Part shown: one piece after another, positions 18,673-39,529 of the stretch
How the letters are laid out: each line of letters starts with the position of its first letter
Numbering within the stretch: the first letter of the stretch is position 1
Origin: an uncultured Pelagibacteraceae bacterium
Lineage (GTDB): Bacteria; Pseudomonadota; Alphaproteobacteria; Pelagibacterales; Pelagibacteraceae
Direction of reading: 5' to 3'
NCBI GenBank assembly: GCA_902587155.1
Contig: CACIKE010000009.1
Span: forward strand, 1-39,529
Length of the DNA: 39,529 nucleotides
Notes under the pieces: model-generated
Told to the model about the DNA's origin: nothing
Database searches by the model: none
Seen by the model: only the letters and a program-made list of their open reading frames with translations
Program-made: the position numbers and the translations under genes

Positions 18673-18691
18673 TCATCCGATTAGTTAATTT

Positions 18692-20406: not shown

Positions 20407-20418
20407 ATTTTATAAAAA

Positions 20419-20979
20419 ATGAATTCTCGAATATTAATAATATATGAATATCAGATTTTATACCAAGTATTAAATGAAATTAGCGAAATTTTAAATTTCG
20501 AGATTATCCAGTTTAATGAGAAGGATTTCAAAGAATTTATTTATGATCAAAAAAATAATTATTTGATTATTTCAGAAAAAAAAATTGAAGGAGTAAAAAA
20601 TTGTTTAATTTTGGATAATCTTCCAATTAAATTTGAAAAGCTTATTGAAATTATAAATATTAAGTTTCTAAAAAATAAATTTTTGGATCAATCATATATT
20701 GAAATAGGCGAATATAATTTAGATTTGAATTCCAGGAAAATTTCACTTGGAAATAAAAGTTTAAATTTAACTGAAAGAGAAACAAATTTAATAATTTTTA
20801 TTAAAGATAAAAAGAATGTGACGATTAAAGAATTACAAAAAAAGGTCTGGGACTATTCACCAGATTTAGACACACATACAGTTGAAACACATATCTATAG
20901 ATTAAGGAAGAAAATGAAAGAAACTTTTGGGAATGAAAGTTTTATATTAAACACCAGTAATGGTTATTCGATAGATTAG
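20419..20979 (+). CDS. Orphan OmpR-type winged-helix regulator with degenerate receiver domain
   Basis: 186 residues. The C-terminal part (about 95-186) is a clear OmpR/PhoB winged helix: LTERETNLIIFI, LQKKVWDYSPDLDTHTVETH and IYRLRKKM, then the wing ending NTSNGYSID. The N-terminal part has receiver-like alternation (ILIIYEYQILYQVLNEI) but the acidic pair is replaced by YEY and no phospho-acceptor Asp is apparent where YLIISEKK stands. It therefore probably acts independently of phosphorylation. No kinase gene is nearby. The ATG is 12 bp from the divergent L,D-transpeptidase start, which makes that gene a candidate target. It ends 3 bp before the convergent PfkB kinase stop. Confidence 0.82.
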   Translation: MNSRILIIYEYQILYQVLNEISEILNFEIIQFNEKDFKEFIYDQKNNYLIISEKKIEGVKNCLILDNLPIKFEKLIEIINIKFLKNKFLDQSYIEIGEYNLDLNSRKISLGNKSLNLTERETNLIIFIKDKKNVTIKELQKKVWDYSPDLDTHTVETHIYRLRKKMKETFGNESFILNTSNGYSID

Positions 20980-20982
20980 TGA

Positions 20983-21909: not shown

Positions 21910-22562
21910 TATGGCTTTTTTGTAATAAATGGTTTTTTTCGATTAGGATAACAAGAAGTACAAATTTTACAACTCAATCCATAACAATCTCTTGCCTTAC
22001 AATATTCCCTGCCATAATAAATTATTTGTAAATGTAATTTGTTCCAATATTTTTTAGGAAACAATCTTTTTAAATCATTTTCCGTTTGAACAACATTTTT
22101 TCCATTTGTTAACCCCCACCTCTGGGCCAACCTATGAATGTGGGTATCAATAGGAAAAGCAGGATGACCAAAACCTTGGGACATTACTACGCTAGCAGTT
22201 TTATGTCCTACGCCTGGTAATTTTTCAAGTTCTCCAAAAGTTTTGGGCACTTTACCTTTATAATCTTTAACCAGTATTTTTGACAAATTATAAATACTCT
22301 TTGCTTTAATCCTAAAAATACCGATTTTTTTAATTAAAGTTTCTATTTTTTTTCTTCCTAATTTAACAAAGTGCTCTGGTTTGTGATATTTTGGGTAAAT
22401 ATTTTTAGTTACATTATTTACATTTACATCTGTGCATTGAGCAGAAAGAAGAACGGATATTAATAGTGTAAATACATTTCGACTTTTGAGTGGAACTTTA
22501 ATACTTGGATATGTTTTATTTAGTATCTTTAGTATTATTTTTGCTCTTTGAATTTCATTCAT
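21909..22562 (-). CDS. nth: Endonuclease III (DNA glycosylase/AP lyase)
   Basis: I take the ATG at 22562, which overlaps the dapB stop as TAATG and gives 217 residues, the usual Nth length. An ATG 20 codons upstream would run into dapB. Nth removes oxidised pyrimidines and cleaves the AP site. The helix-hairpin-helix LPGVGHKTASVV carries the catalytic Lys121, and FPIDTHIHRL carries Asp139. SAQCTDVNVN near residue 40 is also conserved. The C-terminal iron-sulfur cysteines are spaced unusually: Cys188, 193, 198, 201 and 204 rather than C-x6-C-x2-C-x5-C. A [4Fe-4S] cluster is still likely, but the ligand set is not obvious. Confidence 0.93.
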   Translation of the reverse strand: MNEIQRAKIILKILNKTYPSIKVPLKSRNVFTLLISVLLSAQCTDVNVNNVTKNIYPKYHKPEHFVKLGRKKIETLIKKIGIFRIKAKSIYNLSKILVKDYKGKVPKTFGELEKLPGVGHKTASVVMSQGFGHPAFPIDTHIHRLAQRWGLTNGKNVVQTENDLKRLFPKKYWNKLHLQIIYYGREYCKARDCYGLSCKICTSCYPNRKKPFITKKP

Positions 22563-23344
22563 TATTTGAAATTCATTAAGTCTCTCATTGAATATAAACC
22601 AGGTTTTTTCTTTATCAACCAACTAGCAGCTGTTAGCGCACCTTCAGAGTAAAGTGCTCTATCGAATGCCTCATGATTAAGTCTTATTATTTCTTTCCCA
22701 CTAGAAAATAAAACTTCATGTTCTCCAATAATTTGACCTTTTCTAACTGAATTAAAATTTATTTTTTTTCCATAAGGAAATTTTTTTTTATTTAGATATT
22801 TCTTACCTATAATTCCATAGAAATTTCTATTTTTTCCGATCGCTATGCCCTGGCCTAACATTAATGCTGTACCAGAGGGATGATCTTTTTTAAATTTATG
22901 ATGAGCTTCAAAAACTTTACTTAGAAAATTATTACCTAAAGACTTTGATGCAATTTCAGTTAAATACATCAAAAGATTAATTCCAAGACTCATATTTCCA
23001 GCTTTGAGAATTGGAATTTTTTTTGAAATTTTTTTTATTATATTTTCCTCTTTTAAAGTAAAACCTGTAGTCCCAATTATCACTCTTTTTTTTTGTTTGG
23101 CAGCAATATCAAGAACTTTAAGCGTACATTTTGGAATTGTGAAATCTATTATAACGTCACTTTTCTTAAAGGCTTCAGAACTATTTAATTTTGGTAAAAT
23201 ACCGAGAATTTTTTTTTTTTGTAACTTATTTTCTGTGAGACTGTTAATTTTAAATCTTTTATCTTTACTTGCAGATTTGATTAGTTGCTGTCCCATTCTA
23301 CCCAGACATCCTGTAATTGTTAAATTTATTTTTTTAGTTTTCAT
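22562..23344 (-). CDS. dapB: 4-hydroxy-tetrahydrodipicolinate reductase
   Basis: 260 residues. DapB reduces 4-hydroxy-tetrahydrodipicolinate to tetrahydrodipicolinate in the lysine/diaminopimelate pathway, feeding peptidoglycan. The nucleotide-binding loop ITGCLGRMGQQ (10-20) and IIGTTGF are visible. The catalytic EAHHKFKKDHPSGTA motif, with the HH pair and the Lys, lies past the middle. The start lies 11 bp inside the 3' end of the upstream sulfotransferase, and its stop overlaps nth. A cell-wall precursor gene beside the L,D-transpeptidase neighbourhood fits the envelope theme but may be coincidental. Confidence 0.95.
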   Translation of the reverse strand: MKTKKINLTITGCLGRMGQQLIKSASKDKRFKINSLTENKLQKKKILGILPKLNSSEAFKKSDVIIDFTIPKCTLKVLDIAAKQKKRVIIGTTGFTLKEENIIKKISKKIPILKAGNMSLGINLLMYLTEIASKSLGNNFLSKVFEAHHKFKKDHPSGTALMLGQGIAIGKNRNFYGIIGKKYLNKKKFPYGKKINFNSVRKGQIIGEHEVLFSSGKEIIRLNHEAFDRALYSEGALTAASWLIKKKPGLYSMRDLMNFK

Positions 23345-24176
23345 ATTGAAAGAATTTTAAATCATTTCGGTAATATTCATTCATTTTCTTAATCATGTTC
23401 TCATCAAGATTTTTTTTCCAGTCGTTTTCTGGTCCTTGATAAAAAAATTTAATTTTTCTATTGTCTTTTAGAGAATATACGTTTTCACCAAACTTGCCCG
23501 CATTTTCTATGTTTTGTAGACTTTTAAAGTTAGTAGTATCAATTGCATTATTGAGCTTTTTTTGATCAATTTTATTGTCAAATCTCATTAAGGTATTAAC
23601 AAAAACTACTAGCTTTTCAAACGTTTGAGTTGGATTTTTAACCATATCCTCGTATCTTATTGTAACTCTTCTAAAAGACTTATTACTTAACCAAGATCGG
23701 TAATTAATTCTCCAAGAGTTTACTATATTTGTTTTTGCATAGTTTTTTAGGTGTGGATAGTCTTCTAATACTTTATTTTCATCTTGCATAAATTTTAATG
23801 CCTCATCATAAGAATCTAAATCATTGTGATTTTTAACTGAAGTGATTACATTTCTTGGATCTCTGATGACATAAATAACCCCTAGGGTGTACTCGGGCTT
23901 TGTAAAGTCATTTCCAAATGCAGTAATTAAAGAATTGTGTGTTTTTAAAAACTTCACTTTTTTTTGGTCGCGAATATCTTTTTGTGAAGTTTCCCAGTGT
24001 TTATGAATTTCACCTTGTTTGACCTTTTCTTTAAAAAATTGTTTATTTGGATAATCTTCTATTAGATTTAACTTGTTAATATCAAAAATTCCATTTTCGC
24101 AAAAATAGTAAGCTGTAAGAAAAGATCTGATCCAAGTATTTCCACTTTTTGGATATGAGGCAATCCAGATAATCAT
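23334..24176 (-). CDS. Sulfotransferase family protein (copy 2)
   Basis: 280 residues, the same length as the copy at 6491-7333. It has YPKSGNTWIR at the same positions (8-17), VIRDPRNVITSVKNH in the middle, RYEDMVKNP, NFKSLQNIENAG and a C-terminal FFYQGPENDWKK, all in the same order as the first copy. It belongs to the PAPS-dependent sulfotransferase family; the acceptor is unknown, and no PAPS synthesis gene is present in the window. It is cytosolic by sequence. Its 3' end overlaps dapB by 11 bp, so it reads as the upstream member of the dapB-nth-kinase unit, about 70 bp after dnaJ. Confidence 0.85.
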   Translation of the reverse strand: MIIWIASYPKSGNTWIRSFLTAYYFCENGIFDINKLNLIEDYPNKQFFKEKVKQGEIHKHWETSQKDIRDQKKVKFLKTHNSLITAFGNDFTKPEYTLGVIYVIRDPRNVITSVKNHNDLDSYDEALKFMQDENKVLEDYPHLKNYAKTNIVNSWRINYRSWLSNKSFRRVTIRYEDMVKNPTQTFEKLVVFVNTLMRFDNKIDQKKLNNAIDTTNFKSLQNIENAGKFGENVYSLKDNRKIKFFYQGPENDWKKNLDENMIKKMNEYYRNDLKFFQYEN

Positions 24177-24247
24177 ATTTATTTATTAAACTAGGTATTA
24201 ATTATTTCAACTTAAATATTATTTTTGATGAACTAAAGTTGAATTTA

Positions 24248-25384
24248 TTAACTTTTCCAAAAATCTTTTGCTTTTTGAAAAAATTTTTTGATACTTGGAT
24301 TAGATTTATCGTTTTCTATTTCTCTGAATTTTTCTAAAAGACTTCTTTGTTCTTTATTCAAATATACTGGAACTTCAGTTTTAATTTGTACATACAAATC
24401 TCCAAAATCTCCTCTACGCATAAAAGGCATTCCTTTGCCTTTCAACCTAAATTGTTTACCATCTTGAGTTCCATCAGGTATTTTTATTTTTGCTTTTTTA
24501 CCATCAATTGTTGGTATTTCTATTGTTGTACCAAGTGCTGCATCTGCTATGGAAATTGGAAACTCAAAAAATAAATTTACATCTGATCTTTTAAATAATT
24601 CATGAGATTTTACATTTATAAATAAATATAAATCACCACTAGCACCGCCTCTTGTCCCTGCTTCACCTTTGCCAGCAAGTCTAATTCTTGTCCCGTCATC
24701 AACTCCCTTTGGTATTGTGACAGATATTTTTTTTGAAGTTTGAGTGTTTCCTTGTCCATTGCAGTCAGAGCAAGGATTTGTTATTTCTTCCCCGCTTCCT
24801 GCACATTGAGGACATGTTTGTTGAACTGTAAAAAAACCTTGATTAGATCTTACTCTACCGTTTCCACCACAGTAAGTACATCTATCTGGGCTAGACCCAG
24901 GTTTAGATCCGTTTCCCTTACATGTGTTACATTTTTCTGATGTCGAAAATTGTATATTTTGTTTCTTCCCTGAGTAAGCTTCCTCTAATGTAATCGATAA
25001 ATCATATCTTAGATCTGAGCCTCTATTATTTGAACTTCTTCCCCTAGAACTTCTTCTTCCACCACCAAAGTCACCAAAAAAATCTTCAAATATATCTGAA
25101 AAATCTGCACCATTGAAACCTCCAAAACCACCAAACCCACCTTGTCCACCACCACCATTTTCAAATGCAGCATGACCAAAATTGTCGTAATTTTCTTTTT
25201 TAGATTTATCAGATAGAATTCCGTAAGCCTCACTTGCTTCCTTAAATTTTTCTTCGGCTCCCTTATCGCCTGGATTTTTATCTGGATGATATTTTACAGC
25301 TAACTTTCTATATGCAGATTTTAATTCTTCAGGGGATGCGCTTTTATTTACACCGAGGACGTCATAATAATCTCTTTTTGCCAT
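24248..25384 (-). CDS. dnaJ: Chaperone protein DnaJ (Hsp40)
   Basis: 378 residues with the full type I layout: J domain with HPD at 33-35, Gly/Phe-rich linker ([21 protein letters not shown]), four zinc-binding CxxCxGxG repeats ([32 protein letters not shown]) and C-terminal substrate-binding domains. DnaJ delivers clients to DnaK and stimulates its ATPase. The gene follows dnaK after 27 bp with a GAGG Shine-Dalgarno 7 bp before the ATG. No terminator is visible after it. All key residues look intact. Confidence 0.98.
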
Positions 25385-25411
25385 TTATATACCTCGGAAG
25401 ACAAATGTATG

Positions 25412-27337
25412 TTAAGCGCTCTTTTCTTTATTCTCGTCTTTTACTTCCTCAAAATCAGCATCAACAACATTATCCTCTTTTTTTCCTTTGTCATCTTTAC
25501 CATCATCTTTATTAGAATCTGGTTTTGTATTTTGTTGTGATTTATATATTGCTTCTCCAAGTTTCATTGAAGCTTGAACTAGTGCCTCAGTTTTTTTCTT
25601 AATATCATCTGTGTTTTCACCTTTAAGAGCCTCCTTTAATTGACCTGAGGCATCTTCAATAGCTTTTTTGTCGGCTTCAGATACTTTGGAACCGTGCTCT
25701 TTAAGATTTTTATCTGTAGAATGAATTAACGTATCTGCTTGATTTCTTATATCTACAGATTCTCTTTTCTTTTTATCAGCTTCTTTGTTGGCTTCAGCAT
25801 CTTTTACCATTTTCTCAATCTCTTCATCACTTAAACCACCTGAAGCTTGAATTTGAATTTTTTGCTCTTTTCCAGTACCCTTATCTTTCGCTGAAACGTT
25901 AACGATACCATTCGCATCAATATCAAATGTAACTTCAATTTGAGGAACTCCTCTAGGTGCAGGTGCAATTCCAACAAGCTCAAAATTTCCTAAAATTTTA
26001 TTATCAGCTGCCATCTCTCTTTCTCCTTGCAGCACTCTAATAGAAACAGCAGGTTGATTATCTTCAGCAGTTGAGAATACTTGACTCTTTTTAGTAGGAA
26101 TTGTTGTGTTTTTTTCAATTAGTTTTGTAGAAACTCCACCTAAAGTCTCAATACCTAAAGAAAGAGGAGTTACATCTAATAGTAATACATCCTTCACATC
26201 ACCCTGAAGAACACCTGCTTGAATTGCAGCACCCATTGCTACAACCTCATCAGGGTTAACACTTTTATTAGGTTCTTTCCCAAAGAAATTTTTTACTTCT
26301 TCGATTACCTTAGGCATTCTAGTCATACCACCAACCATTACAACTTCATCAATTTCATTGGCAGTGATACCAGCATCTTTCAATGCAGTTTTACATGGTG
26401 GCATTGTTTTAGCTATAAGATCTTCAACTAGCGCCTCAAGTTTTGCTCTTGTAAGTTTTAAATTAATATGTTTTGGGCCAGTTTTGTCAGCTGTAATAAA
26501 TGGTAAATTAATATCAGTTTGTTCAGCTGAGGATAATTCAATCTTAGCTTTTTCAGCTGCTTCTTTTAATCTCTGAAGAGCAAGTTTATCTGATTTCAAA
26601 TCTATTCCATTATCTTTTTTAAATTCTGCAATTAAATATTCAACTACAGAATTATCAAAATCTTCACCACCTAAGAATGTATCTCCGTTTGTTGATTTAA
26701 CTTCAAAGACTCCATCACCAAGCTCAAGTATTGAAACATCAAATGTTCCACCGCCCAAGTCATAAACCGCAATTTTCTTATTTTGTTTTTTATCTAAACC
26801 ATAAGCTAATGATGCAGCAGTAGGTTCATTTATAATTCTTAAAACTTCTAGACCTGCAATTTTTCCAGCATCTTTTGTTGCTTGTCTTTGAGCATCATTG
26901 AAGTATGCAGGAACAGTAATTACAGCTTTTGTAACAGCTTGACCTAAATATTTTTCTGCTGTTTCTTTCATTTTTTGTAAAATAAAAGCTGAGATTTGAG
27001 AAGGAGAGTATTTTTCTCCTTTAGACTCTATCCACGCATCACCCTTTTCTGAATTGACAATCTTAAATGGAGCCGCTTCTATATCTTTTTTAACAGTTGG
27101 GTCATCAAAGTTTCTTCCAATAAGTCTTTTAACTGCAAAAATAGTGTTTTCGGGGTTGGTTACAGCTTGTCTTTTAGCTGGTTGACCTATCAATTTTTCT
27201 TTATCATCCGTAAAGGCAACTACAGATGGTGTTGTTCTAGCGCCCTCGGCATTTTCCAAAACTTTTGCTTGGCTTCCCTCCATTATAGCTACACAAGAGT
27301 TTGTTGTTCCTAAATCTATTCCAATAATTTTACTCAT
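25412..27337 (-). CDS. dnaK: Chaperone protein DnaK (Hsp70)
   Basis: 641 residues, full length. The ATPase domain begins [18 protein letters not shown], includes [18 protein letters not shown] and [13 protein letters not shown], and is followed by the linker [19 protein letters not shown] and the substrate-binding domain. The C-terminus is acidic and ends DENKEKSA. DnaK folds newly made and stress-damaged proteins with DnaJ and GrpE. grpE-dnaK-dnaJ lie in this order on the minus strand, with a 60-bp gap before dnaK that may contain its own heat-shock type promoter. No CIRCE element was seen. Confidence 0.99.
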
Positions 27338-27356
27338 AATAATTAATTATCCTCGT

Positions 27357-27385
27357 CATATATGTGTTATTTTTGATTCTACAAG
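27357..27385 (-). promoter_or_regulatory. Possible sigma-32-type promoter between grpE and dnaK
   Basis: Reading the minus strand, CTTGTA (27385-27380) resembles the RpoH -35 CTTGAA, and CACATATATG (27366-27357) partly resembles its -10. The spacing of 13 bp is acceptable. It lies 20 to 48 bp before the dnaK ATG, with a GAGG ribosome site (27354-27351) between. The match is partial and the background very AT-rich, so this is only a candidate. Confidence 0.3.
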
Positions 27386-27397
27386 CTGTTCCAATCA

Positions 27398-28036
27398 TTA
27401 TTTAGTCTCCAAATTCTCTTTAGTTTCCTCTGTTTTGGCTGTTTTTTCTTGAGTTTTCTTGGCTACGCCAACTAAAGATGGCCTTAGTAATCGATCTTTA
27501 ATAGTGAAACCTTTTTGAATTTCTTGAATTATAGTTCCTGGTTCTTTTGTATCATCCTCAATTTCCATCATCGCTTGATGAAAGTTTGGATCTAATTTTT
27601 TATTTAAACCATCAATCTGTTTAATATCATTTTTGTTAAATATGGATATTAAATCTTTATAAATTATATCAAAATGTTCTAAAGTTTTTTTAAGTGCTTC
27701 AGAGTCTTTCAACTTTTCATCGTTCTCTAAAATACTTTTTGATCTTTCAAAATTATCTATAAGGCTAAGCGCTTCTTTAGCAAATGAAAAACCACCGTAT
27801 TCAAAAGCATCTTCCTTCTCCTTCTCAAACCTTCTTCGTTGATTTTCCATTTCAGCAAATGCTCTAGCTAGTTTATCTTCAAGTTCTAAAATCTTTTCCT
27901 CTGGTGTTAATTCTTTTTTGTTCTCTTCCACTTTTTTATTATGATCATCCGTTTGATCTTGATGCTCATCAGATTTGTTATTTTCTTCCTTGGCTAAATT
28001 TTCGTTCTGGATATTTTTTTTTTGTTCTTTTTCCAT
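27398..28036 (-). CDS. grpE: Nucleotide exchange factor GrpE
   Basis: 212 residues. GrpE dimers release ADP and client from DnaK. The first 60 residues are highly charged and Lys/Glu/Asp-rich (low complexity), followed by the long coiled-coil helix containing AFAEMENQRRRFEKEKEDAF. The C-terminal beta domain has LDPNFHQAMMEIED and GFTIKDRLLRPSLVGVAK, both diagnostic. It heads the grpE-dnaK-dnaJ unit. Only 36 bp separate its start from the divergent rdgB, and no hrcA lies upstream, unlike many alphaproteobacterial heat-shock loci. Confidence 0.96.
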   Translation of the reverse strand: MEKEQKKNIQNENLAKEENNKSDEHQDQTDDHNKKVEENKKELTPEEKILELEDKLARAFAEMENQRRRFEKEKEDAFEYGGFSFAKEALSLIDNFERSKSILENDEKLKDSEALKKTLEHFDIIYKDLISIFNKNDIKQIDGLNKKLDPNFHQAMMEIEDDTKEPGTIIQEIQKGFTIKDRLLRPSLVGVAKKTQEKTAKTEETKENLETK

Positions 28037-28072
28037 AGATGCTTATATGGTAAGAAATTTAGGAATTTCTAG

Positions 28073-28675
28073 ATGTTAAAAAAAAAAATATCAAAATTAT
28101 TAATTGGCACAAATAATAAAGGAAAACTCAGAGAAATTAAGGGTTTATTGCCAAAATCAATTAAGATTTTCTCTACATCAGATTTTAATCTTCAAAGTCC
28201 AGTAGAAAATGGACAAACGTTCAAGGAAAATTCAATAATTAAATCTAAGTATTTTTCAAAAAAATCTAATTTAGTTTGTATTGCTGATGACTCTGGTCTT
28301 GAAATAGATTGTTTGGATAAAAAACCTGGAATTTTTTCAGCCAGATGGGCAGGATCTAAGGGAGATTTTAACAAAGCAATAAAAAGAGTATATAGGGAGT
28401 TAAATAAAAAAGATAAAAAATGGCAAACTAAAAATATAAAAGCAAGATTTGTATGTGCATTATCAATTTGTTATTTAGATAAAATAATTGCAAGTGTTGT
28501 TGGCAAAATAGAGGGTTCTATCTCAAGCAAAATTAGAGGAAAAAATGGATTTGGGTATGACCCAATTTTTATTCCTAAAAAAAAGAGACAAACTTTTGGT
28601 GAAATGACATTTTCAAGTAAATGTAAAATTGACCATAGATCAATTGCATTTAAAAAAATTAAAAAATTTCTTTAA
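28073..28675 (+). CDS. rdgB: XTP/dITP pyrophosphatase (RdgB/HAM1 family)
   Basis: 200 residues, normal for the family. It hydrolyses deaminated purine triphosphates (ITP, dITP, XTP) so they are not built into nucleic acid. TNNKGKLREI (13-22), ENSIIKSKYF, the catalytic ADDSGLEID with Asp73, FSARWAG and GFGYDPIFIP are all present. With maf it is the second nucleotide-pool cleaning enzyme in this window. It diverges from grpE, a neighbourhood often seen in Alphaproteobacteria. Its last 17 bp overlap the convergent LpoA-like gene. Confidence 0.95.
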   Translation: MLKKKISKLLIGTNNKGKLREIKGLLPKSIKIFSTSDFNLQSPVENGQTFKENSIIKSKYFSKKSNLVCIADDSGLEIDCLDKKPGIFSARWAGSKGDFNKAIKRVYRELNKKDKKWQTKNIKARFVCALSICYLDKIIASVVGKIEGSISSKIRGKNGFGYDPIFIPKKKRQTFGEMTFSSKCKIDHRSIAFKKIKKFL

Positions 28676-29813
28676 GTTCTCCGTTAATAATTTGATAAAA
28701 ATTTAATTGATGATTAATTTTATTATCTTTAATTTCAAAAACTCCTATTTTTCCTTTAAATGTATTTTGAGTTTTAAATGATTTGCTTATTTCTAAAGCC
28801 TCATTTTTTAGTGATAGGTAATATATCAAACCTATTAAATCATAACTCAGTAATGATAGATAACTAGGTTTATAATTAAATTTTTTAAAAAATTTATTAG
28901 TAAACTCATCTAAATTTTTCTTGTTAATTGAAGGATAGTAAATTGGTTGTAAATTTTTTTCTTTTAATAAACTTTCATCGAACCATTGATTTAAAGTAAT
29001 TATATATTTATTTTCTGGTGATACGTCAGTATATAGCAATGAAGTGACAACACTTTTTAAACTCTCATCAAAATCTGTAATTATAACAGAATCAAATTTA
29101 ACATTCCCAAGAGTATATTTTTTTTCAAGATTCTCTATAATTCTTTCTTTATTTGGATCATCAGAATTTTCAACTCGTGATATTTCATCAAATAGATTTT
29201 GTTTTCTTATTTCATAGTTTGTAATTTTTTCTATTTGTTTAGTCAATTTAGTAGGGTCAATATCATAATTGTATTGTTTAAAAAATTTTATATTTGAGTC
29301 TTTAATTCCTTTTTTAATTTCTAATTTATAATTAAGATTTGGAATTAAAAAAATTGTTTTTTTTATTTCATTATTTTCCAAAAATTTTTTAATTGTATTC
29401 AATTGTGAAGATGAGTTAATACCACTGCTAATGATATTTTTATGAAGGCCCAAGGTTTTGTTTGTTAAAGACAAAAAAGTAATACTTTTTACTTTATCTA
29501 AAAATAATAAATTTTTATGAAAAACTGGACCTATAACTAGTGATATTCCTTTTTTTTCAAGTTCCAAAGCTGAGCGCAAAGTTACATCAGGATCAGACCT
29601 AGTGTCTTTAGGATATATCTCTATCTCATTATTTTTTAGATCAATTAAGGCCATCCTTATTGAATTAAGTAGTTGTTTTCCTAAGGATGCATTTTCTCCT
29701 GATAAAGGTACTAATACTCCAATCTTGATTTTTGTTTCTTCGGAATATGAAATAGATGTTTCAATCAATAAAACCAAAAATATAGAAAAAACAATTTTAA
29801 AAAATTTATTCAT
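28659..29813 (-). CDS. LpoA-like penicillin-binding protein activator (periplasmic binding fold)
   Basis: 384 residues with a signal peptide (about 1-24, ending SISYS) and a type I periplasmic-binding fold. Key segments are IKIGVLVPLSGENASLGKQL, an IEIYPKDTRSDPDVTLRSALELE stretch and ISLVIGPVFHKN. This is the alphaproteobacterial 'penicillin-binding protein activator' group related to the C-terminal domain of LpoA. It lacks the N-terminal TPR domain and a lipobox. Divergence from rsmI, with a DolP-like gene beyond, mirrors the E. coli yraL-lpoA-dolP locus and strongly supports the call. An ABC amino-acid receptor is the alternative. The 3' end overlaps rdgB. Confidence 0.75.
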   Translation of the reverse strand: MNKFFKIVFSIFLVLLIETSISYSEETKIKIGVLVPLSGENASLGKQLLNSIRMALIDLKNNEIEIYPKDTRSDPDVTLRSALELEKKGISLVIGPVFHKNLLFLDKVKSITFLSLTNKTLGLHKNIISSGINSSSQLNTIKKFLENNEIKKTIFLIPNLNYKLEIKKGIKDSNIKFFKQYNYDIDPTKLTKQIEKITNYEIRKQNLFDEISRVENSDDPNKERIIENLEKKYTLGNVKFDSVIITDFDESLKSVVTSLLYTDVSPENKYIITLNQWFDESLLKEKNLQPIYYPSINKKNLDEFTNKFFKKFNYKPSYLSLLSYDLIGLIYYLSLKNEALEISKSFKTQNTFKGKIGVFEIKDNKINHQLNFYQIINGELKEIF

Positions 29814-29847
29814 TTAATGATTTATATAATTTTAGTATTGTATAATT

Positions 29848-30711
29848 ATGTCTGTAAACCCTAAATTTCAAAATAAAGAAATTAAAAAAGGTTTATATAT
29901 AATACCCACACCCATTGGAAATTTAGGTGATATTACCTATAGAGCAATAGAAATTTTAAAAAAGTCAGATTTTATTTTATGTGAGGACACTCGAATTTCG
30001 AGAAAATTGATGGAAAAATTTGAGGTTAGATCAAAATTATTACCTAATCACAAATTTAATGAAAAAAAAAATTTATCTACAATTATAAATCATTTGAGAA
30101 ATGACAAAATTATTTCACTTATATCAGATGCCGGCACGCCTGGAATATCAGATCCTGGAGCAATTTTGATAGTAAAGTGTGTTGAAGAAAAAATAAATAT
30201 TTTTCCATTACCGGGGCCTTCTGCAGTAAGCACTGCTGTATCAATTAGTGGTTTTTCTGATAAATATTTTTTTTATGGTTTCTTTCCCTCAAAACTAAAA
30301 GATATTAAAAATGATTTAAAATCTCTGGCTCAATTAGACTCGTCTATTGTTTTTTTTATTTCCCCAAAAAAAATAAATAAAGCTATTCCATTTATTAAAA
30401 ATTGTTTTTTTGAGAGAGATATTTTGATTTGTAGAGAAATGACAAAATTTTATGAGGAATATTTAAGATATAAAGTTGATGATTTAAAACCTTTTGATGA
30501 AAACTTAAAAGGTGAATTAACCCTTGTGATATCTGAAAAAAAGAAATTAAAAAAAGGTTCTCTTTTATTAAGTGAATCAGATAAGAATAATATAAAAAAA
30601 ATGATTAAAAAATTGAGTATTAAAGAAATTGTAAATTTAGTCTCCCAAAATAACGGAGTGTCAAAAAAAAAAATTTATGATTTTTGTCTTAAAATAAAAA
30701 ATGAAGTTTAG
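29848..30711 (+). CDS. rsmI: 16S rRNA (cytidine-2'-O)-methyltransferase RsmI
   Basis: 287 residues. RsmI methylates the 2'-OH of C1402 in 16S rRNA, in the ribosomal P site. The N-terminal GLYIIPTPIGNLGDITYRA, LCEDTRISRKL, ISDAGTPGISDPGAIL and PLPGPSAVSTAVSISGF are all classic tetrapyrrole-methylase-fold SAM-binding motifs. It diverges from the LpoA-like gene with 34 bp between. The 3' end overlaps the BON-domain lipoprotein by 11 bp. yraN, which usually sits between them, is missing. Confidence 0.96.
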   Translation: MSVNPKFQNKEIKKGLYIIPTPIGNLGDITYRAIEILKKSDFILCEDTRISRKLMEKFEVRSKLLPNHKFNEKKNLSTIINHLRNDKIISLISDAGTPGISDPGAILIVKCVEEKINIFPLPGPSAVSTAVSISGFSDKYFFYGFFPSKLKDIKNDLKSLAQLDSSIVFFISPKKINKAIPFIKNCFFERDILICREMTKFYEEYLRYKVDDLKPFDENLKGELTLVISEKKKLKKGSLLLSESDKNNIKKMIKKLSIKEIVNLVSQNNGVSKKKIYDFCLKIKNEV

Positions 30712-31294
30712 AATTTTAATATTAATATTAATTACTTTGTTTTTGTCAGGATGTGTTGGTGTCTCTTCAAAAGGAATTTTTGGAACAGGAGTGTCAGTTG
30801 CTTTAGATCCAAGATCTTTAGGGACACAGATTGATGACTCTATAATGCAAAAAAACCTATCAGCAAGATTAGTATTGATGGATAAGAAATATTTTTTATC
30901 AATAAAATCAAAAGTTTTGGATGGAAGAATTTTCCTAACCGGAAAAGTTGATAAACCAGAGGAAAAATTAAAAATAACAAAATTAGCTTGGGAAACAGAG
31001 GGAGCTAGATCTGTGAGAAATGATATTAAAATTAAAGAGAAATTTAACTTTCAACAATCTGCAAAAGATATTTTAATTACTTCACAATTAAGGACAGCTT
31101 TAATTTTAAATAAAGAAATAAAGGCAACTAACTATCAGATAGATACTTATAAAAAGAAAGTTTATGTATATGGTATAGCTTTAACACCAGATGAAAAAGA
31201 ATTAGTAGTGAAAGAGGCTAAAGAAATATTAGATGTTGAGGATGTGATAGCTAGTATTTTAATAGTCGATGATTTAAGAATTCAAAAAAATTAA
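30701..31294 (+). CDS. dolP: DolP-like BON-domain outer membrane lipoprotein
   Basis: 197 residues. A lipoprotein signal ends in LSGC (Cys18), followed by two BON domains: one at roughly 45-110 (LVLMDKKYFLSIKSKV, GRIFLTGKVD) and one at 120-195 (ILITSQLRTALILN, KKVYVYGIALTPDEKELV). E. coli DolP (YraP) has the same size and plan and supports outer membrane integrity and BAM activity. Synteny with rsmI and the LpoA-like gene supports the symbol, though other BON lipoproteins exist. Its ATG lies within the last codons of rsmI, and its TAA shares TTAA with the convergent maeB stop. Confidence 0.82.
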   Translation: MKFRILILILITLFLSGCVGVSSKGIFGTGVSVALDPRSLGTQIDDSIMQKNLSARLVLMDKKYFLSIKSKVLDGRIFLTGKVDKPEEKLKITKLAWETEGARSVRNDIKIKEKFNFQQSAKDILITSQLRTALILNKEIKATNYQIDTYKKKVYVYGIALTPDEKELVVKEAKEILDVEDVIASILIVDDLRIQKN

Positions 31295-33576
31295 GCTTCC
31301 TTATAATCAATTACATCTGATGAATACGCTGCTATTGATGCTAGATTAATTATTTCTGAAGTAGAGGTTCTTAAAGGAGCGATTTCTATTGGAAGACCTA
31401 ACCCAATTAATAATGGTCCAATAACTTTTGCTCTACTCATTGATTTTATCATTTTGTAAGAAATAGCTGCACTATGTTGGCTAGGCATTATCAATACATT
31501 TGAATTTCCCACAATTTCTGAAAAAGGGTAAAGCTCTTTATATAATTCTTCTAGGGCAACATCTGGCTGCATTTCTCCGTCAAACTTAAAATCAACTTTA
31601 TCTTTCTTTAGTATTTCAACTGCATCACTTAATCTTTTAGTCCTGTCAGTTGCTGGTTCCCCAAAAGTGGAATGAGATAAGAAAGCTACTTTAGGATCAA
31701 ATCCAAATAATCTGACTACCCGAGCTGCTGATTTAGCCATCTCTGCTAGCTGATTTGCGTCCGGATATTCAATTACAGAAGTATCACATATGAAAATTGT
31801 TTTTCCTCTATTAACAATTAAGTTTAGTCCAAACATAATTTCTCCAGCTCTAGGATCTACAACTTGAGTTATCTTTTCCAGTGATGAAGAATATCTTCTA
31901 GTATTTCCAGTGACCATTGCATCAGCGTCCTTACATGCTACCATACAAGATGCCCAAACAACCCTATCATTTCTAATTAAACGATCACAATCTCGTTCAA
32001 GCATGCCTTTATTTCTTTGAAGTTTTCCAAAAAGATATTTTACATACTTTTCTCTCTTTTTAGCATCTTTTGAATTGGTAATTTCTATATCAAAATTCTC
32101 ACTGTAACCTATCTTCTTTAATTGATTTTTAATTAGATCCTCTTTTCCAACTAAGATTGGTATACCTAAATTGGAATTCTTAAATGCTATTGCTGCTTTA
32201 AGCATGTTTTCATCCTCACCATCTGCAAAAATTACTTTTTTTGGTTTCTTTTTAATGTAGTTGTTTATGCCCTGCATAATCGTAACTGTTGGATCCAATC
32301 TTTGTCTTAACTGATCTTTGTAACTATCAAAATCTTTTATATCTATTCTTGCAACACCAGAGTCTATTGCCGCTTTAGCTACTGCAGCAGGAATTACACT
32401 TATAAGTCTTGGATCGAATGTTGAGGGAATTATATATTCTTTTCCATAATGTGGCCTCTCACCCCCCATCGCAGCAACAACTTCATCAGGAACTTCTTCT
32501 TTAGCTAAGTTTGCAATAGCGTGTGCGGCTGCAATTTTCATTTCCTCATTTATAGTTTTAGATCTTACATCTAGTGCACCTCTAAATATATATGGAAAAC
32601 CTATTAGATTATTTACCTGGTTTGGATAGTCTGATCTTCCAGTGGCCATAATTGCATCACTTCTTACTTTAGCAACTTCCTCAGGTTTAATTTCTGGATC
32701 AGGATTTGCGCATGCAAATATAATAGGATTATTAGCCATTTTTTTTACCATATCTTTTGTTAAAGCTCCTTTCGCTGACAAACCTAAAAATACGTCAGCA
32801 TTACTGATCGCATCTGATAAAGTTCGATGTTTAGTCTCAATAGCATGAGCTGATTTCCACTGGTTTAAATTTTCTCTTCCATTATAGATCACCCCTGTTC
32901 TGTCAACCATTGTAATGTTTTTTTGTGGAACACCACTTCTCTTAAACAAATTAGCACAAGCCATCGCTGAGGCACCTGCGCCATTGACAACTATTTTTAC
33001 TTCATCAATTTTTTTTTTTGTAATATCCAGTGCATTGATTAGTGCAGCTGTAGTTATAATTGCCGTACCATGTTGATCATCATGAAAAACAGGAATATCT
33101 AAAATTTCTTTAAGTTTTTCCTCAATAATAAAACAATCTGGAGCAGCAATATCCTCCAGATTAATACCCCCAAAACTTGGAGCAAAATTTTTAACACTAT
33201 TAATTATCTCGTTATGATCTTGTGAATCAATTTCAAGATCAATCGAGTCAATATCAGCAAACCTTTTAAATAATACTGCTTTTCCCTCCATAACAGGTTT
33301 TGAGGCTAAAGCTCCTAAGTTACCCATACCTAAAATTGCAGAACCATTACTAATTACTGCCACAAGGTTTCCCTTACTTGTATAGTCAAATGCAGTTTCT
33401 GGATTTTCACTTATGGCTTTTACTGGTGCTGCCACACCTGGCGAATAAGCTAATGCGAGATCTCTTTTTGTAGTCATATTCTTTGAGGAGGAGATTTCGA
33501 TCTTACCTGGTTTATTCTGACGATGATAATCTAAAGCTTCTTTATCTGTATAATGATCAATTTTTGTTTTTTTCAT
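31291..33576 (-). CDS. maeB: NADP-dependent malic enzyme with C-terminal phosphotransacetylase-like domain
   Basis: 761 residues. MaeB oxidatively decarboxylates malate to pyruvate with NADP+. The first ~430 residues are the malic enzyme part ([63 protein letters not shown]). The rest is a phosphotransacetylase-like domain ([30 protein letters not shown]), which in MaeB is regulatory rather than catalytic. It is a stand-alone minus-strand gene with 50 bp to the divergent murJ. Length and domain order match the family. Confidence 0.97.
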
Positions 33577-33626: not shown

Positions 33627-35156
33627 ATGAATTTAGTTAAGTCAACAGGGACTTTTGGTTTCTATACTATTATTAGCAGATTACTTGGATATTTGAGAGA
33701 TGTTTTGATAGCAATTTTTCTTGGAACGAGTTTTTTGGCTGATGCTTTTTTTGTAGCTTTTAGAATACCGAACACTTTTAGAAGACTTTTTGCTGAGGGA
33801 ACGTTTAACTCAGCTTTTGTACCAAGTTACACTTCAGAATTAGTTCAAAATAAATCTAGATCAAATAAATTTGCTAATGATGTTTTTAATTTATTATTTT
33901 TGGCTTTATTTTTTTTAGTTCTCATAATTGAAATTTTTATGCCAATTTTTGTGGGACTGATAGCACCAGGCTTTGTTGAAGATACTAAAAAATTTGAATT
34001 AGCAACTACTTTAACAAGAATTACTTTCCCCTTTTTAATGTTTGTGAGTCTATCTTCCTTTTTTGGTGCAATTTTAAACTCACATAATAAATTTGCTGCT
34101 GCTTCAGCAGCGCCCATTATTTTAAATATAGTTTTAATTACTATTTTATTTTTTGGAAGATATTTAGGTGATGAATTAATTTACTATCTTTCATACGGGA
34201 TATCTATTGCAGGATTACTACAATTAATTTTTTTATATAGATTTGTAAAAAAATATTATGCCTTAGATTTTGGTTTTAAATTTAAAATCACCAATAAAGT
34301 TAAATTTTTTTTTAAAAAATTATTACCAAGTATTTTTTCCTCAGGAGTTACTCAAATAAATATTTTGGTTGGAACAATTATAGCTTCATTCCAGGCAAGT
34401 GCTGTATCATATCTATATTATGCTGATAGAATATATCAAATTAATTTAGCAATAGCTGGTATAGCAATTGGTGTTGTTGTCCTGCCTCAACTCTCAAAAC
34501 ATGTTCACCAAAAAAAAAAGAAGAAGATATCATTAATTCAAAATAAAGCATTAGAGCTAAGTATGTTTTTGAGTATACCTGCCTCAGTAGCGTTAGTTAT
34601 AGGATCTGAACAAATTATTTCAGCTTTATTTGGGTACGGTTCTTTTGCAGAAAACTCAGTTTTTAATTCCTCGAATGCTCTTTATTATTTTGGCTTAGGA
34701 CTCCCAGCATTTGCATTAATAAAAGTTTTTTCGACATTTTTTTTTGCAAATCATGATACTAAAACTCCATTTTACATTTCCGTAGTTTCTGTTTTGCTAA
34801 ATATTTTCATAAGTGTTCACTTTTTTAAAGATATTGGTTTTATAATTATTCCTATAGCAACAACGATATCCTCATGGTTTAACGCTTTAATATTATTCAT
34901 TTATCTAAAAAAAAATAACTTATTTGAATTTAATGAAACTTTTTATAAACAATTTATTAAGATAATTTTTGCATCAATTATGATGGGCATTTTTTTTCAA
35001 TACTTGATCTTGTTATTTGAAAATCAATTAAGTTACACCTTTTTCTTTAAGTCTGTATATTTATTGTTATGTGTTTTATTCACAATAATTTTTTATTTGG
35101 CATTATCATATTTTATCAAAGCTTTTAATTATCAAGATATTAAATTAAAGTATTAG
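33627..35156 (+). CDS. murJ: Lipid II flippase MurJ
   Basis: 509 residues of a MOP-superfamily integral membrane protein with about 14 helices. MurJ flips lipid II to the periplasm for peptidoglycan synthesis. The N-terminus has TFGFYTIISRLLGYLRDVLIA and AFRIPNTFRRLFAEGTFNSAFVPSY, with the functional Arg residues of the central cavity. SHNKFAAASAAPIILN in helix region 4-5 is also characteristic. Codon use is extremely AT-rich, in keeping with the neighbours. It begins the murJ-trpS-nfu-bax rightward run, with trpS only 3 bp downstream. Confidence 0.94.
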   Translation: MNLVKSTGTFGFYTIISRLLGYLRDVLIAIFLGTSFLADAFFVAFRIPNTFRRLFAEGTFNSAFVPSYTSELVQNKSRSNKFANDVFNLLFLALFFLVLIIEIFMPIFVGLIAPGFVEDTKKFELATTLTRITFPFLMFVSLSSFFGAILNSHNKFAAASAAPIILNIVLITILFFGRYLGDELIYYLSYGISIAGLLQLIFLYRFVKKYYALDFGFKFKITNKVKFFFKKLLPSIFSSGVTQINILVGTIIASFQASAVSYLYYADRIYQINLAIAGIAIGVVVLPQLSKHVHQKKKKKISLIQNKALELSMFLSIPASVALVIGSEQIISALFGYGSFAENSVFNSSNALYYFGLGLPAFALIKVFSTFFFANHDTKTPFYISVVSVLLNIFISVHFFKDIGFIIIPIATTISSWFNALILFIYLKKNNLFEFNETFYKQFIKIIFASIMMGIFFQYLILLFENQLSYTFFFKSVYLLLCVLFTIIFYLALSYFIKAFNYQDIKLKY

Positions 35157-35159
35157 AAT

Positions 35160-36161
35160 ATGAAAAAAAAAATTTTCTCTGGTGTTCAACCTACTGGAAA
35201 TCTTCATTTAGGAAATTATTTAGGAGCTATAAAAAACTTTGTCGATTTAAACAATGATACTCAAAATGAATGTATTTTTTGTGTAGTTGATCTTCATGCA
35301 ATAACTGTAAGCCAAAATCCAAAAGATCTAAAATCAAATATACATGAGACAGTCGCCACATTTGTTGCTAGTGGAATAGATCCTAAAAAAAGTATAATTT
35401 TTAATCAATCTAGAGTTAGTGCCCACACAGAGGCAGCATGGATTTTAAGCTGTGTTGCGAGAATGGGATGGTTAAATAGGATGACCCAATTTAAGGAAAA
35501 AGCTGGGAAAGATAAAGAGAAAGCAAGTATCGGTCTTTATTCATATCCTGTTTTAATGGCGGCTGACATTTTATTATATGACTCAACTCATGTACCTGTT
35601 GGAGATGATCAAAAACAACATTTGGAGCTATGTCGTGATATAGCTCAAAAATTTAATAATGATTATAAAATCAAAAATTTTTTTGTAGTTCCCGAACCTT
35701 TAATTAAAAAAGAATTTTCTAGAATTATGAGTCTTAAAGACGGTCTCAAAAAGATGAGTAAATCTGATGTATCAGACCTGAGCAGAATAAATTTAACTGA
35801 TGATAAAGATCAAATAATAAATAAAATTAAAAAGGCAAAAACTGATACTCTACCTATGCCATCTACAATTGAAGAATTACAAAAAAGACCTGAGGCTAAA
35901 AATTTAATTGGTATTTATTCAAGCTTGATGAATAAGACACTTCAAAAATCAATTGATGAATTTGCAGGTAAAAATTTTTCAGAATTTAAAGAAAAATTAT
36001 CAGATTTAGTTGTAAAAGAAATCAACCCAATTTCATTAAAAATTAAGGATTTATTAGATGACAAAGTCTTTTTGGAAAAAATACTTAAAGACGGATACGA
36101 GAAAGCGAATGAAATTGCTTCAAAAAAAATAAATAAAATTCACGAAATTGTAGGTTTTTGA
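35160..36161 (+). CDS. trpS: Tryptophanyl-tRNA synthetase
   Basis: 333 residues, typical for bacterial TrpRS. It charges tRNA-Trp. The HIGH motif reads HLGN (16-19) in GVQPTGNLHLGNYLGAI, and KMSKSD lies near residue 198. VPVGDDQKQHLELCRDIA is diagnostic of TrpRS as opposed to TyrRS. It begins 3 bp after murJ, which is a common alphaproteobacterial pairing and suggests one transcript. Nothing unusual in sequence or length. Confidence 0.97.
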   Translation: MKKKIFSGVQPTGNLHLGNYLGAIKNFVDLNNDTQNECIFCVVDLHAITVSQNPKDLKSNIHETVATFVASGIDPKKSIIFNQSRVSAHTEAAWILSCVARMGWLNRMTQFKEKAGKDKEKASIGLYSYPVLMAADILLYDSTHVPVGDDQKQHLELCRDIAQKFNNDYKIKNFFVVPEPLIKKEFSRIMSLKDGLKKMSKSDVSDLSRINLTDDKDQIINKIKKAKTDTLPMPSTIEELQKRPEAKNLIGIYSSLMNKTLQKSIDEFAGKNFSEFKEKLSDLVVKEINPISLKIKDLLDDKVFLEKILKDGYEKANEIASKKINKIHEIVGF

Positions 36162-36214
36162 TGATATTTACATAAAGCAGTACCATTTTTTTAAATATTG
36201 CTTATATATAAATC

Positions 36215-36754
36215 ATGTTTGTTCAGACTGAGATAACACCTAATCCTAATTCGTTAAAATTTATACCTGGCAAGGTCGTTTCTAGCGTGGGATCATTTGA
36301 AATAACTAAAAATGACGAGGTAAATAATGAGCTAATTAGAAATATTCTTTCAGTGAATGGTGTTGAGGGAATTTTTTTAAGTAAAGATTTTATTTCAGTT
36401 AATAAAAATGACGAAAACTCATGGGACGAAATAAAGTATATTGTAATCTCACACATAAATGAATTTTATGCATCAGGAAAAGAATTTGTTATTAATAAAG
36501 ATTTAACTGAACAAACCGAGAGCTTTGATGAAATTGAGAAAAGAATAGTGCAGTTACTTGAGGAGAAAATTCGTCCAGCAATAGCTAGAGACGGAGGAGA
36601 TATTAAATTTAAAGAATTTAAAGATGGAGTAGTTAAAGTTCAATTACAAGGGAGCTGTTCTGGCTGTCCTAGTTCGACAATGACTTTAAAACAAGGTGTG
36701 CAAAATCTTTTGTGTCATTATTTACCAGAGGTAAAAAAAGTTGAGGCTATTTAA
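36215..36754 (+). CDS. Nfu-type iron-sulfur cluster scaffold/carrier
   Basis: 179 residues. The N-terminal Nfu_N domain (1-88; FVQTEITPNPNSLKFIPG) is followed by a NifU C-terminal domain (about 105-175; RPAIARDGGDIKF) with the cluster-binding CSGC, Cys148 and Cys151, in GSCSGCPSSTMTLK. Such proteins carry [4Fe-4S] clusters between the scaffold and client enzymes. Possible clients encoded here include MiaB and endonuclease III, both [4Fe-4S] proteins. It lies 53 bp after trpS and 3 bp before the Bax-like gene. The trpS-nfu-(tsaB/fur/miaB) neighbourhood is frequent in Alphaproteobacteria. Confidence 0.93.
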   Translation: MFVQTEITPNPNSLKFIPGKVVSSVGSFEITKNDEVNNELIRNILSVNGVEGIFLSKDFISVNKNDENSWDEIKYIVISHINEFYASGKEFVINKDLTEQTESFDEIEKRIVQLLEEKIRPAIARDGGDIKFKEFKDGVVKVQLQGSCSGCPSSTMTLKQGVQNLLCHYLPEVKKVEAI

Positions 36755-36757
36755 TTT

Positions 36758-37840
36758 ATGAGAAAAATCTTTAAAAAAGATAAGATTAAACCTTTTAGAG
36801 TTTTTGATGAAAATGGCTTAAGCTCACTACCGAGAATTCTTATAAGTAGTGCGGTTGTTATCTTATTTTTTTATTCTTTGCCAATTATTGTCAATTTTAC
36901 AAGTGATAAAATTGAAAGCTCAGCTGGAATTCAAAATAATTCAAAAGCAATACTTGCATACACTCTTAATAAAAAATCTTCAAATTCGTCAAATTCACAA
37001 ATATTTAATGAAGATGATCTCTTAATCGACATTTATAGCCTAAATGATCAAGAAACGGATACAGTAAGATTAGATGCCTCAACAATAAAACAGCTTTTTG
37101 AAGATACAGATTATAAGCTTGATGATGTTAGAAAAAAAAAATTAGTTAAGCCTATAGCTTTAACTTTACTTCCAGCAGAAATTAAAATGATCGAGAGCGT
37201 AAAAAAGAGAAAAGAATTCTTTATACAAATAGTATTGCCATTGATTTTAGAGGAAAATAAAAACATCAAATTAGATAGACGGAGATTATTCAGCATAATT
37301 AATAAGAGCAACAACTCAAAATCTGAGAAACAATGGTTAGAAAAAAAATATAAACAATACGGTATACCGACTAGAGATTTATCAATTCTAAAAAGAAGAA
37401 TGGATATAGTTCCAGTTTCTTTAGCGCTTGCCCAAGCCGCAAAAGAAACAGGTTGGGGAACGTCTAGATTTGCACAACAGGGAAATGCTTTATTTGGACA
37501 ATGGACTTGGTCAGGAGAAGGATTACGACCAAAAGATGCTGAAAAAAGTGAAGGCCACAAAGTTATGAAATTTAATGTTTTGCAAGCTTCAGTAAGAGCT
37601 TATCAAAGAAATATAAATACACATTCAAGTTATGAGGATTTTAGATTAGCCAGAGCAAAGCTAAGAGATCTGGGTGAACCATTAGACAGTATAATTTTAT
37701 CAGAATATTTAGATAAATATGCAGAAACAGGAAATGAGTATGTAAAAGTTTTACAAAAGATTATTCAACAAAATAATCTAAAAGATTTTGATGATGCAAA
37801 ACTATTACCTTCAAGCATTGAGTTAAAAAGTTTAATTTAA
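36758..37840 (+). CDS. Bax-like membrane-anchored glucosaminidase
   Basis: 360 residues. A cytosolic N-terminal stretch is followed by one transmembrane helix (about 27-47), a Ser/Asn-rich region and a C-terminal glucosaminidase domain (about 200-335). The active-site segment LALAQAAKETGWGTSRFA carries the predicted catalytic Glu230, and NALFGQWTW and VRAYQRNINTH follow. It should face the periplasm and cut glycan strands of peptidoglycan, as predicted for E. coli Bax. It starts 3 bp after nfu and ends 6 bp before the convergent miaB-derived gene. The predicted specificity is from the family only. Confidence 0.85.
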   Translation: MRKIFKKDKIKPFRVFDENGLSSLPRILISSAVVILFFYSLPIIVNFTSDKIESSAGIQNNSKAILAYTLNKKSSNSSNSQIFNEDDLLIDIYSLNDQETDTVRLDASTIKQLFEDTDYKLDDVRKKKLVKPIALTLLPAEIKMIESVKKRKEFFIQIVLPLILEENKNIKLDRRRLFSIINKSNNSKSEKQWLEKKYKQYGIPTRDLSILKRRMDIVPVSLALAQAAKETGWGTSRFAQQGNALFGQWTWSGEGLRPKDAEKSEGHKVMKFNVLQASVRAYQRNINTHSSYEDFRLARAKLRDLGEPLDSIILSEYLDKYAETGNEYVKVLQKIIQQNNLKDFDDAKLLPSSIELKSLI

Positions 37841-37846
37841 AAGAGA

Positions 37847-38842
37847 TTATCTAATAATAAATTGTGTTCCAAACCATCTCCATTTACCGTCGTCATTTAT
37901 AGAACAATTAATTCTGCCTCTTCTTGGTAAAAATGGTTCCCTAAATTCTATTGTGAGTTCCTTTTCAATAAGTTTAATATTTGATTTCATCCATTTATCC
38001 CCTTCGTTGGAATAGCAGTTAATATTTTCAATATTTTTTTGATCATCAAAAAATTTTACTTTAAATTTTGGAGGATTATTTTCTTTTGATAATTTTTTTT
38101 CCTCAGGCTCTAATTTTTTATATTCAAGCGGATAATAGTTTATTATTGATTTAAATCTTTTAATATCATTCAATTTTTCTATACTTAATATTAAATCAGA
38201 TAAGCGAAAACCATTACTTTTATAAGCGTTAACATTTTGACCTAACAAAGTTATTTCTCTTACGCCATTGTCCACCAAATATTTTGCTTCATCCAAAATT
38301 TGACTAGGTGGTCTTGAGTACTCCGGTCCTCTTGTGTAAGGAACTACACAAAAATGACAGAACTTATCACAGCCTTCTTGAATTGTTAAAAAAGATGAAA
38401 CTTTTTCTACTTTATTTTTTATTTTACTCAAATATTCAAATTTTGTATCAGCATCAAACTCTGTTTCCTCAAGTTTTCTTTTTTTTTCAACGTATTTTAA
38501 AATTGTATCATTAATTTTGTGGTAAGCTTGAGGACCTATTACCAAATCAATGAAAGGCTCTCTTTTTATCATTTCTTTATTTTCTGCTTGAGCAACACAA
38601 CCTGCAATAATAATTAATGGTTTTTTTTTAAATCTAAAAATTTTTTTTACTCTACCTATTTCAGAATAGACTTTTTCTTTAGCTTTATTCCTTATATGAC
38701 ATGTGTTTAACAAATAACAATTAGCATCCTCGTATTTTTCTGTCTTCTCATAACCAATTTTTTTAACAGCATCTAATATTCTATTAGAGTCATACTCATT
38801 CATTTGGCATCCAAAGGTTTTAATAAAGATTTTTTGACTCAT
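37847..38842 (-). CDS. miaB: Truncated MiaB fused in frame to an unrelated C-terminal tail
   Basis: 331 residues against about 440-470 for MiaB, the radical-SAM methylthiotransferase that makes ms2i6A37 in tRNA. Residues 1-230 are clear MiaB: FGCQMNEYDSNR with Cys12, Cys48 in LNTCHIRNKA, Cys81 in AGCVAQ, the radical-SAM triad CxxxCxxC at Cys158/162/165, and VREITLLGQNVNAY. The match stops at KLNDIKRF, where RYTTSHP is expected. The rest of the radical-SAM barrel and the TRAM domain are absent. About 100 residues follow that do not resemble MiaB and end in GRINCS and KWRWFGTQF. The tail faintly recalls the C-terminus of some polysaccharide-deacetylase proteins. The product is probably inactive as a methylthiotransferase. 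The start directly abuts fur. Confidence 0.8.
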   Translation of the reverse strand: MSQKIFIKTFGCQMNEYDSNRILDAVKKIGYEKTEKYEDANCYLLNTCHIRNKAKEKVYSEIGRVKKIFRFKKKPLIIIAGCVAQAENKEMIKREPFIDLVIGPQAYHKINDTILKYVEKKRKLEETEFDADTKFEYLSKIKNKVEKVSSFLTIQEGCDKFCHFCVVPYTRGPEYSRPPSQILDEAKYLVDNGVREITLLGQNVNAYKSNGFRLSDLILSIEKLNDIKRFKSIINYYPLEYKKLEPEEKKLSKENNPPKFKVKFFDDQKNIENINCYSNEGDKWMKSNIKLIEKELTIEFREPFLPRRGRINCSINDDGKWRWFGTQFIIR

Positions 38843-39283
38843 TTATTGAGGTTTTTTTTTGACCCCATATAATTCTAATTTATGATCTACTAATTTATAA
38901 CCGTATTTTTCTGCAACTTTTTTCTGAAGTTTTTCTATCTCATCATCAACAAATTCTATGATCTCACCTGTTTTAATATCTATCAAATGATCATGATGGC
39001 TTTCGATCATTGCTTCATATCTTGCCTTTCCACCTTTAAAATCGTGTTTTGTTAAGATCCCAGCCTCTTCGAATAATTTTACTGTCCTATAAACTGTGGC
39101 TATACTAATTTTTGGATCAACTTTCAAAACACGGTTATAAAGCTCATCTACATCCGGGTGATCAGACTCGCCATACTCAGACTTAGACTCTGAAATTATT
39201 TTTGCAATAATTTTTCTTTGTTCTGTAAGTTTAACACCTTTAGCTAAACACTTTTGCTCAATTGTATCTGCTGTATCTGACAT
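38843..39283 (-). CDS. fur: Fur-family ferric/metal uptake regulator
   Basis: I take the ATG at 39283 (146 residues, MSDTADTIEQKCLAKG...); an upstream ATG at 39307 lies inside tsaB. The N-terminal winged helix has GVKLTEQRKIIAKII, HPDVDELYNRVL and SIATVYRTVKLFEEAGIL. The dimerisation domain keeps ESHHDHLIDIKTGEIIEF, a typical metal-binding region. The CxxC pairs of the structural zinc site are absent (only one Cys, near the N-terminus), as in many alphaproteobacterial Fur/Mur proteins. Iron or manganese specificity is not decidable. It sits between tsaB and miaB, a common order. Confidence 0.92.
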   Translation of the reverse strand: MSDTADTIEQKCLAKGVKLTEQRKIIAKIISESKSEYGESDHPDVDELYNRVLKVDPKISIATVYRTVKLFEEAGILTKHDFKGGKARYEAMIESHHDHLIDIKTGEIIEFVDDEIEKLQKKVAEKYGYKLVDHKLELYGVKKKPQ

Positions 39284-39291
39284 ACTTAATT

Positions 39292-39529
39292 TTAACTTAT
39301 ATAACAAGGGTTAATCAAATTTTTTTTGAGGTTAAATTTACTGCAAAGATGCGGTATATTTTCGTATTTAATATCAACTTCATTCGGAAAGTCCTTAAAA
39401 CTAAAGCAATAATAATCAATTTTTTTAATCATGTGAATTGCTTTAATTGTTGATAATGAATTTCGAATACCTGCAAAACTACCAGGGCCTCTATTTATAT
39501 AAATTAATGCGACATCACTAATCTCTAAA
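39292..39529 (-). CDS. tsaB: TsaB (t6A modification subunit), C-terminal part
   Basis: Reading inward from the window edge gives 79 codons to a TAA at 39292. RGPGSFAGIRNSLSTIKAIH matches the ASKHA-fold motif of TsaB (usually GPGSFTGLR). TsaB is the dimerisation partner of TsaD in making N6-threonylcarbamoyl-A37. Only about 56 residues follow the motif, against about 150 in E. coli, and the sequence ends NPCYIS, reminiscent of the usual C-terminal P-x-Y-x-R. The second subdomain thus seems missing or extremely reduced. The 5' part is outside the window. The fur ATG lies 9 bp after its stop. Confidence 0.8.
   Translation of the reverse strand, partial: LEISDVALIYINRGPGSFAGIRNSLSTIKAIHMIKKIDYYCFSFKDFPNEVDIKYENIPHLCSKFNLKKNLINPCYIS

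Follow-up and report, generated by a model that had tools for sequence, protein, structure and literature searches.

The 331-aa ORF at 37847-38842 in the window (the whole stretch analysed, 39,529 bp, which is one entire contig of a 985-kb, 24-contig assembly that is 77.8% complete) is very probably a false gene, produced at an inverted chimeric junction, most likely as an artefact of MDA-type amplification at the contig end. The ORF joins pieces of two parent genes, miaB and a polysaccharide deacetylase-like gene (PDA), at a microhomology; the miaB piece and everything beyond it up to the contig end are inverted relative to relatives, and the other halves of both genes are missing from the assembly. 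The features of the locus are as follows.

36758..37840, plus strand: Bax-like glucosaminidase gene in its native position (PF01832, E 5.4e-17; same place and direction in relatives).
37847..38842, minus strand: chimeric 331-aa ORF, MiaB N-terminal half plus PDA tail (ORF, translation, genome match).
37847..38167, minus strand: 3' end of PDA, in its native place and orientation beside bax (tail matches, gene order, PF01522 in a relative).
38156..38167, no strand: junction, sequence common to both parent genes, which forms an inverted repeat when these stand in their native order (alignment to four relatives).
38156..38842, minus strand: 5' half of miaB, about 229 codons, inverted relative to relatives (TIGR01574, gene order, DNA alignment).
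38156..39529, no strand: inverted segment reaching the contig end (reversed match to G061:C1 97437-96064, 93.7%).
38843..39307, minus strand: fur-family regulator, intact, inverted relative to relatives (PF01475, E 1.8e-40; gene order).
39292..39528, minus strand: 3' part of a gene that we take to be tsaB-like, inverted and cut by the contig end (ORF list, gene order).

The ORF is open throughout its translation, with no internal stops. In the NCBIfam profile search its residues 4-231 matched positions 1-232 of the 437 positions of TIGR01574 (MiaB, the tRNA ms2i6A methylthiotransferase) with an E value of 1.6e-68, and the score of 231.8 bits was below the full-length cut-off of 355.3. The ORF resembles MiaB in the N-terminal UPF0004 domain, with three cysteines, and in the first radical-SAM half, with the CxxxCxxC motif; the six cluster cysteines of the original prediction can be read directly in the translation. 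It differs from MiaB in that the remaining radical-SAM part and TRAM are missing in the contig. PF04055 matched only up to position 90 of 166 and no TRAM match was obtained in the Pfam search, whereas the intact MiaB of a relative contained the whole PF04055 and TRAM, which agrees with the earlier statement that these parts had been replaced by a foreign tail. The intact miaB product has 442 aa in the relative L042. The TIGR01574-type half ends at residue 231 of 331, and the contig stops 0.7 kb beyond the ORF.

Searched alone against Pfam and NCBIfam, the tail gave nothing significant (best PF01077, E 0.14), and no PF01522 deacetylase domain was matched in it in Pfam. When 60 other genomes of the genus were searched, 48 (49 of 61 when the assembly itself is counted) had a different protein whose C-terminus matched the last 99 residues of the tail with 50-74% identity. 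The ORFs bearing these matches were 354-363 aa long in most cases and 391 and 426 aa in two, while in three genomes (G006, G018 and G059) they were 36-97 aa long, with the match at or near a contig end. No tail match was found in 12 of the 60 genomes, one of which is about 90% complete. The intact parent protein carries a PF01522 polysaccharide-deacetylase domain at residues 93-212 (Pfam), and from these matches the ORF tail is identified as the C-terminus of a predicted polysaccharide-deacetylase-like protein, PDA. The window holds PDA only from about residue 242 on; the catalytic domain lies upstream of the break and is missing in the contig.

The Bax-like gene (NF007681 'protein bax', E 7.9e-35, 120.4 bits, under the cut-off of 193) ends at 37840 and the chimeric ORF begins at 37847, which leaves the 6-bp gap reported before. 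In L042 (AG-894-K14), bax ends at 3158 and PDA at 3165, convergent and with the identical gap, and the same gap exists in L043, L044 and L045. Therefore, the tail and not the MiaB half sits in its native place. Alignment of the tail to proteins and to the genes beside bax in relatives, a check proposed earlier, thus confirmed that the tail, as the last approximately 100 residues of PDA, comes from the 3' end of a separate minus-strand gene neighbouring bax.

Gene order was compared in two sets, namely 20 same-genus stretches picked from the better tail matches, and the best 80 of at least 590 confirmed relatives ranked by score; the sets overlap, since G058:C10 and the AG-447-L07 contig, for example, have the same length. 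The order bax, PDA, tsaB, fur, miaB, with PDA opposing the other four, was found in all 20 stretches, and nifU precedes bax in 19 of them. Among the best 80 of at least 590 loci, 77 keep this order, with PDA on the strand opposite that of tsaB, fur and miaB; the other three (L054, L063 and L110) hold no PDA and begin at a contig end. Within these 80 best loci, bax is present in the miaB direction in 73, and miaB runs past the break of the chimera, to residue 320 at least, in every one. In the window, the minus strand carries the miaB half, fur and tsaB, so that all three oppose bax. Comparison with G061 (AG-894-K14), which matches the MiaB half best among the best 80 of at least 590, gave the same picture: window positions 1-38179 align forward, save one insertion of about 0.87 kb at around 6494-7365, and only 38156-39529 is reversed, which indicates an inversion reaching the contig end and not a deletion. 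The last 1.37 kb of the window is inverted relative to the relatives examined.

The main reading of the original prediction, a deletion that fused miaB with the 3' end of a minus-strand gene next to it, is on this evidence almost certainly wrong. It was right that the tail is the 3' end of such a gene beside bax; in relatives, however, bax shares its direction with miaB, fur and tsaB while PDA opposes them, so a deletion alone cannot give the present orientation, and fur and tsaB are reversed together with miaB as one block. A simple deletion was rejected, since the orientation in 20/20 stretches and in 77 of the 80 best loci (of at least 590) requires an inversion. The sequence facts given for the ORF stood; what had been overlooked were the reversed fur and tsaB and the contig end 0.7 kb farther on.

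A working MiaB-PDA fusion that has taken on a new role is hardly credible as the product of the ORF. The single open frame without stops would be expected of such a protein, but it would work without half of the radical-SAM domain, TRAM and the deacetylase domain, and a join in frame would arise in about one of three cases by chance. No fused relative was found among the best 80 of at least 590 confirmed loci; the possibility that relatives share the 331-residue protein as a conserved family had been raised before, and a conserved fused family was rejected on this count. L066 and L076 match the chimera over residues 1-315 and 1-309, yet each has a full separate miaB and PDA, and these long matches are probably alignment run-on. 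A limited literature search found no report of a MiaB-polysaccharide deacetylase fusion. The suggestion of a new role thus found no support in the best 80 of at least 590 loci.

The join itself lies in a short run shared by the two parent genes, 9 bp when judged from L043 and L044 and 12 bp from L042 and L045, these relatives standing in for the cell's own native sequence. In the four relatives the two parent sites face each other, 2180-2197 bp apart. For random site pairs in L042 (200,000 draws), the probability of at least 9 shared bp was 0.00023 and of at least 12 was 0.00001. Since such a run is unlikely by chance, a short inverted repeat probably gave rise to the join, through annealing or recombination. 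By eye, the repeat is read as Ile-Lys-Arg in L042, and the product is in frame because both parents read it in the same frame. Mismatches to L042 fall on third codon positions in 26/34 and 21/30 cases in the two halves, so neither half shows decay, which would fit an artefact or a very recent event.

A short repeat at the junction is also what a purely computational misjoin by the assembler would leave. Usual assembly k-mers are longer than 9-12 bp, and the read or amplified molecule therefore probably already carried the join, which makes an assembler misjoin highly unlikely.

An amplification product accounts for the junction as follows. The whole genome of a SAR11 (Pelagibacteraceae) cell would have been amplified by phi29-type MDA, and a nascent strand would have been displaced after extending across tsaB, fur and the 5' half of miaB. 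Its 3' end may have annealed by about 9-12 bases (around ATTAAAAG) to the single-stranded PDA gene 2.2 kb away, from where synthesis would have run on across the PDA tail and into bax. Apart from this product, coverage of the region was probably poor, and the chimera would have become the last 1.37 kb of the contig. In the living cell, miaB and PDA would be expected intact, in the order of bax and PDA convergent, followed by tsaB, fur, miaB and phoH in the bax direction, and the join would not be in the DNA of the cell.

Published MDA chimeras have these properties. According to Lasken and Stockwell (2007, PMC1855051), 406 of 475 chimeras were inverted, 337 of those 406 with parts less than 10 kb apart; complementarity, up to 21 bp, was present in 93.5% of the inverted chimeras under 10 kb, and about one junction occurred per 22 kb. 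The window agrees with these chimeras in that nearby segments less than 10 kb apart are joined with the second one inverted, in that the two parts share a few complementary bases where they meet (9-12 bp, estimated from four relatives), and in that part of the native intervening stretch is missing from the contig. In another study, overlaps peak at 6 nt and are usually 5-8 nt, and distances run from 0 to more than 5,000 nt and are most often 250-300 nt (PMC4595205). With 9-12 bp of overlap and parts 2.2 kb apart, the join in the window is inside these published ranges and above the commonest values. A rate of about one chimera per 10 kbp of MDA is quoted in a third paper (PMC4937190).

That the assembly of the window is also a single-cell genome is suggested by its relatives: in our own count of titles, 75 of the best 80 of at least 590 loci carry AG-/AH- codes, many of them also prefixed 'MAG:'. 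We take these codes to be names of single-amplified genomes. A metagenome bin is normally made without an MDA step, which would count against the MDA reading if the assembly is a bin. An assembly or amplification chimera had been named earlier as a possibility, and the inversion, the short overlap and the distance under 10 kb match its amplification form.

Inversion at a short inverted repeat also occurs in living cells and leaves the same junction, and this counts against the MDA reading. A true inversion of about 2.2 kb, carried by the cell or its strain and arising from recombination or template switching at the repeat, would break miaB and PDA and give two reciprocal fused ORFs. The junction structure and the open, in-frame ORF are as such an event would produce, and the contig stops before the place of the reciprocal join. 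We nevertheless consider it unlikely. None of the 20 stretches or of the 77 informative loci (from the best 80 of at least 590) shows it, it would sever phoH to metK from the upstream tsaB-fur-miaB genes, which probably form an operon with them, and the 77.8%-complete assembly contains neither of the missing halves that the reciprocal join would hold. There is also no relaxed selection in either half, which argues only against an old event. If true, it would be a recent SAR11 inversion at a 9-12 bp repeat, splitting a gene order otherwise common to all the relatives examined.

Sequence searches of the 77.8%-complete assembly found neither the N-terminal part of PDA nor the C-terminal part of miaB, and phoH and metK were not found there either; in the control, the phoH query and the metK query each found their gene in 5/5 relatives. 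The earlier remark that phoH does not follow miaB was correct, and the assembly has no phoH match elsewhere. A second complete miaB, which had been proposed as a check, was absent from the assembly, where the chimera and the intact 441-aa protein of a relative both matched the window copy only. The last 300 bases of the contig have no second full copy in the assembly, the only other match being 42 bases at 84% in C2. As metK is expected to be essential and is nevertheless absent, the missing block (the PDA N-terminal part, the miaB C-terminal part, phoH and metK) is most likely an assembly gap. The rest of miaB falls in this gap, and the loss of miaB or of ms2 modification proposed earlier cannot be inferred from an incomplete assembly.

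The biological yield of the false gene favoured here is small, and loss of MiaB in the cell cannot be concluded from it. A gene that is fused or truncated at the end of a contig in a (probably) single-cell genome can be an artefact of amplification even if it is open and in frame, and a quick test of such a fusion is to see if the genes on its far side, too, are reversed relative to relatives.

Some variation was seen among the aligned genomes. L085 (AG-907-J03) has its PDA match in three pieces and tsaB in two, which may reflect frameshifts, decay or sequencing errors. DNA identity to L045 (AG-333-I10) is 89.2% over window positions 35001-38179 and 80.6% over fur, tsaB and the miaB half, unlike L042-L044 with 91-94% over the latter genes, and this may reflect recombination in the L045 lineage. 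Identity to G061 drops to 83.6% over window positions 12972-32931, from 89-92% in the forward-aligned flanks. At the place where G061 lacks about 0.87 kb, the window has a 280-aa ORF (6491-7333, minus strand), presumably sulfotransferase-like by its PKSGNTW motif and located between genes that we take to be rho-like and mnmE-like.
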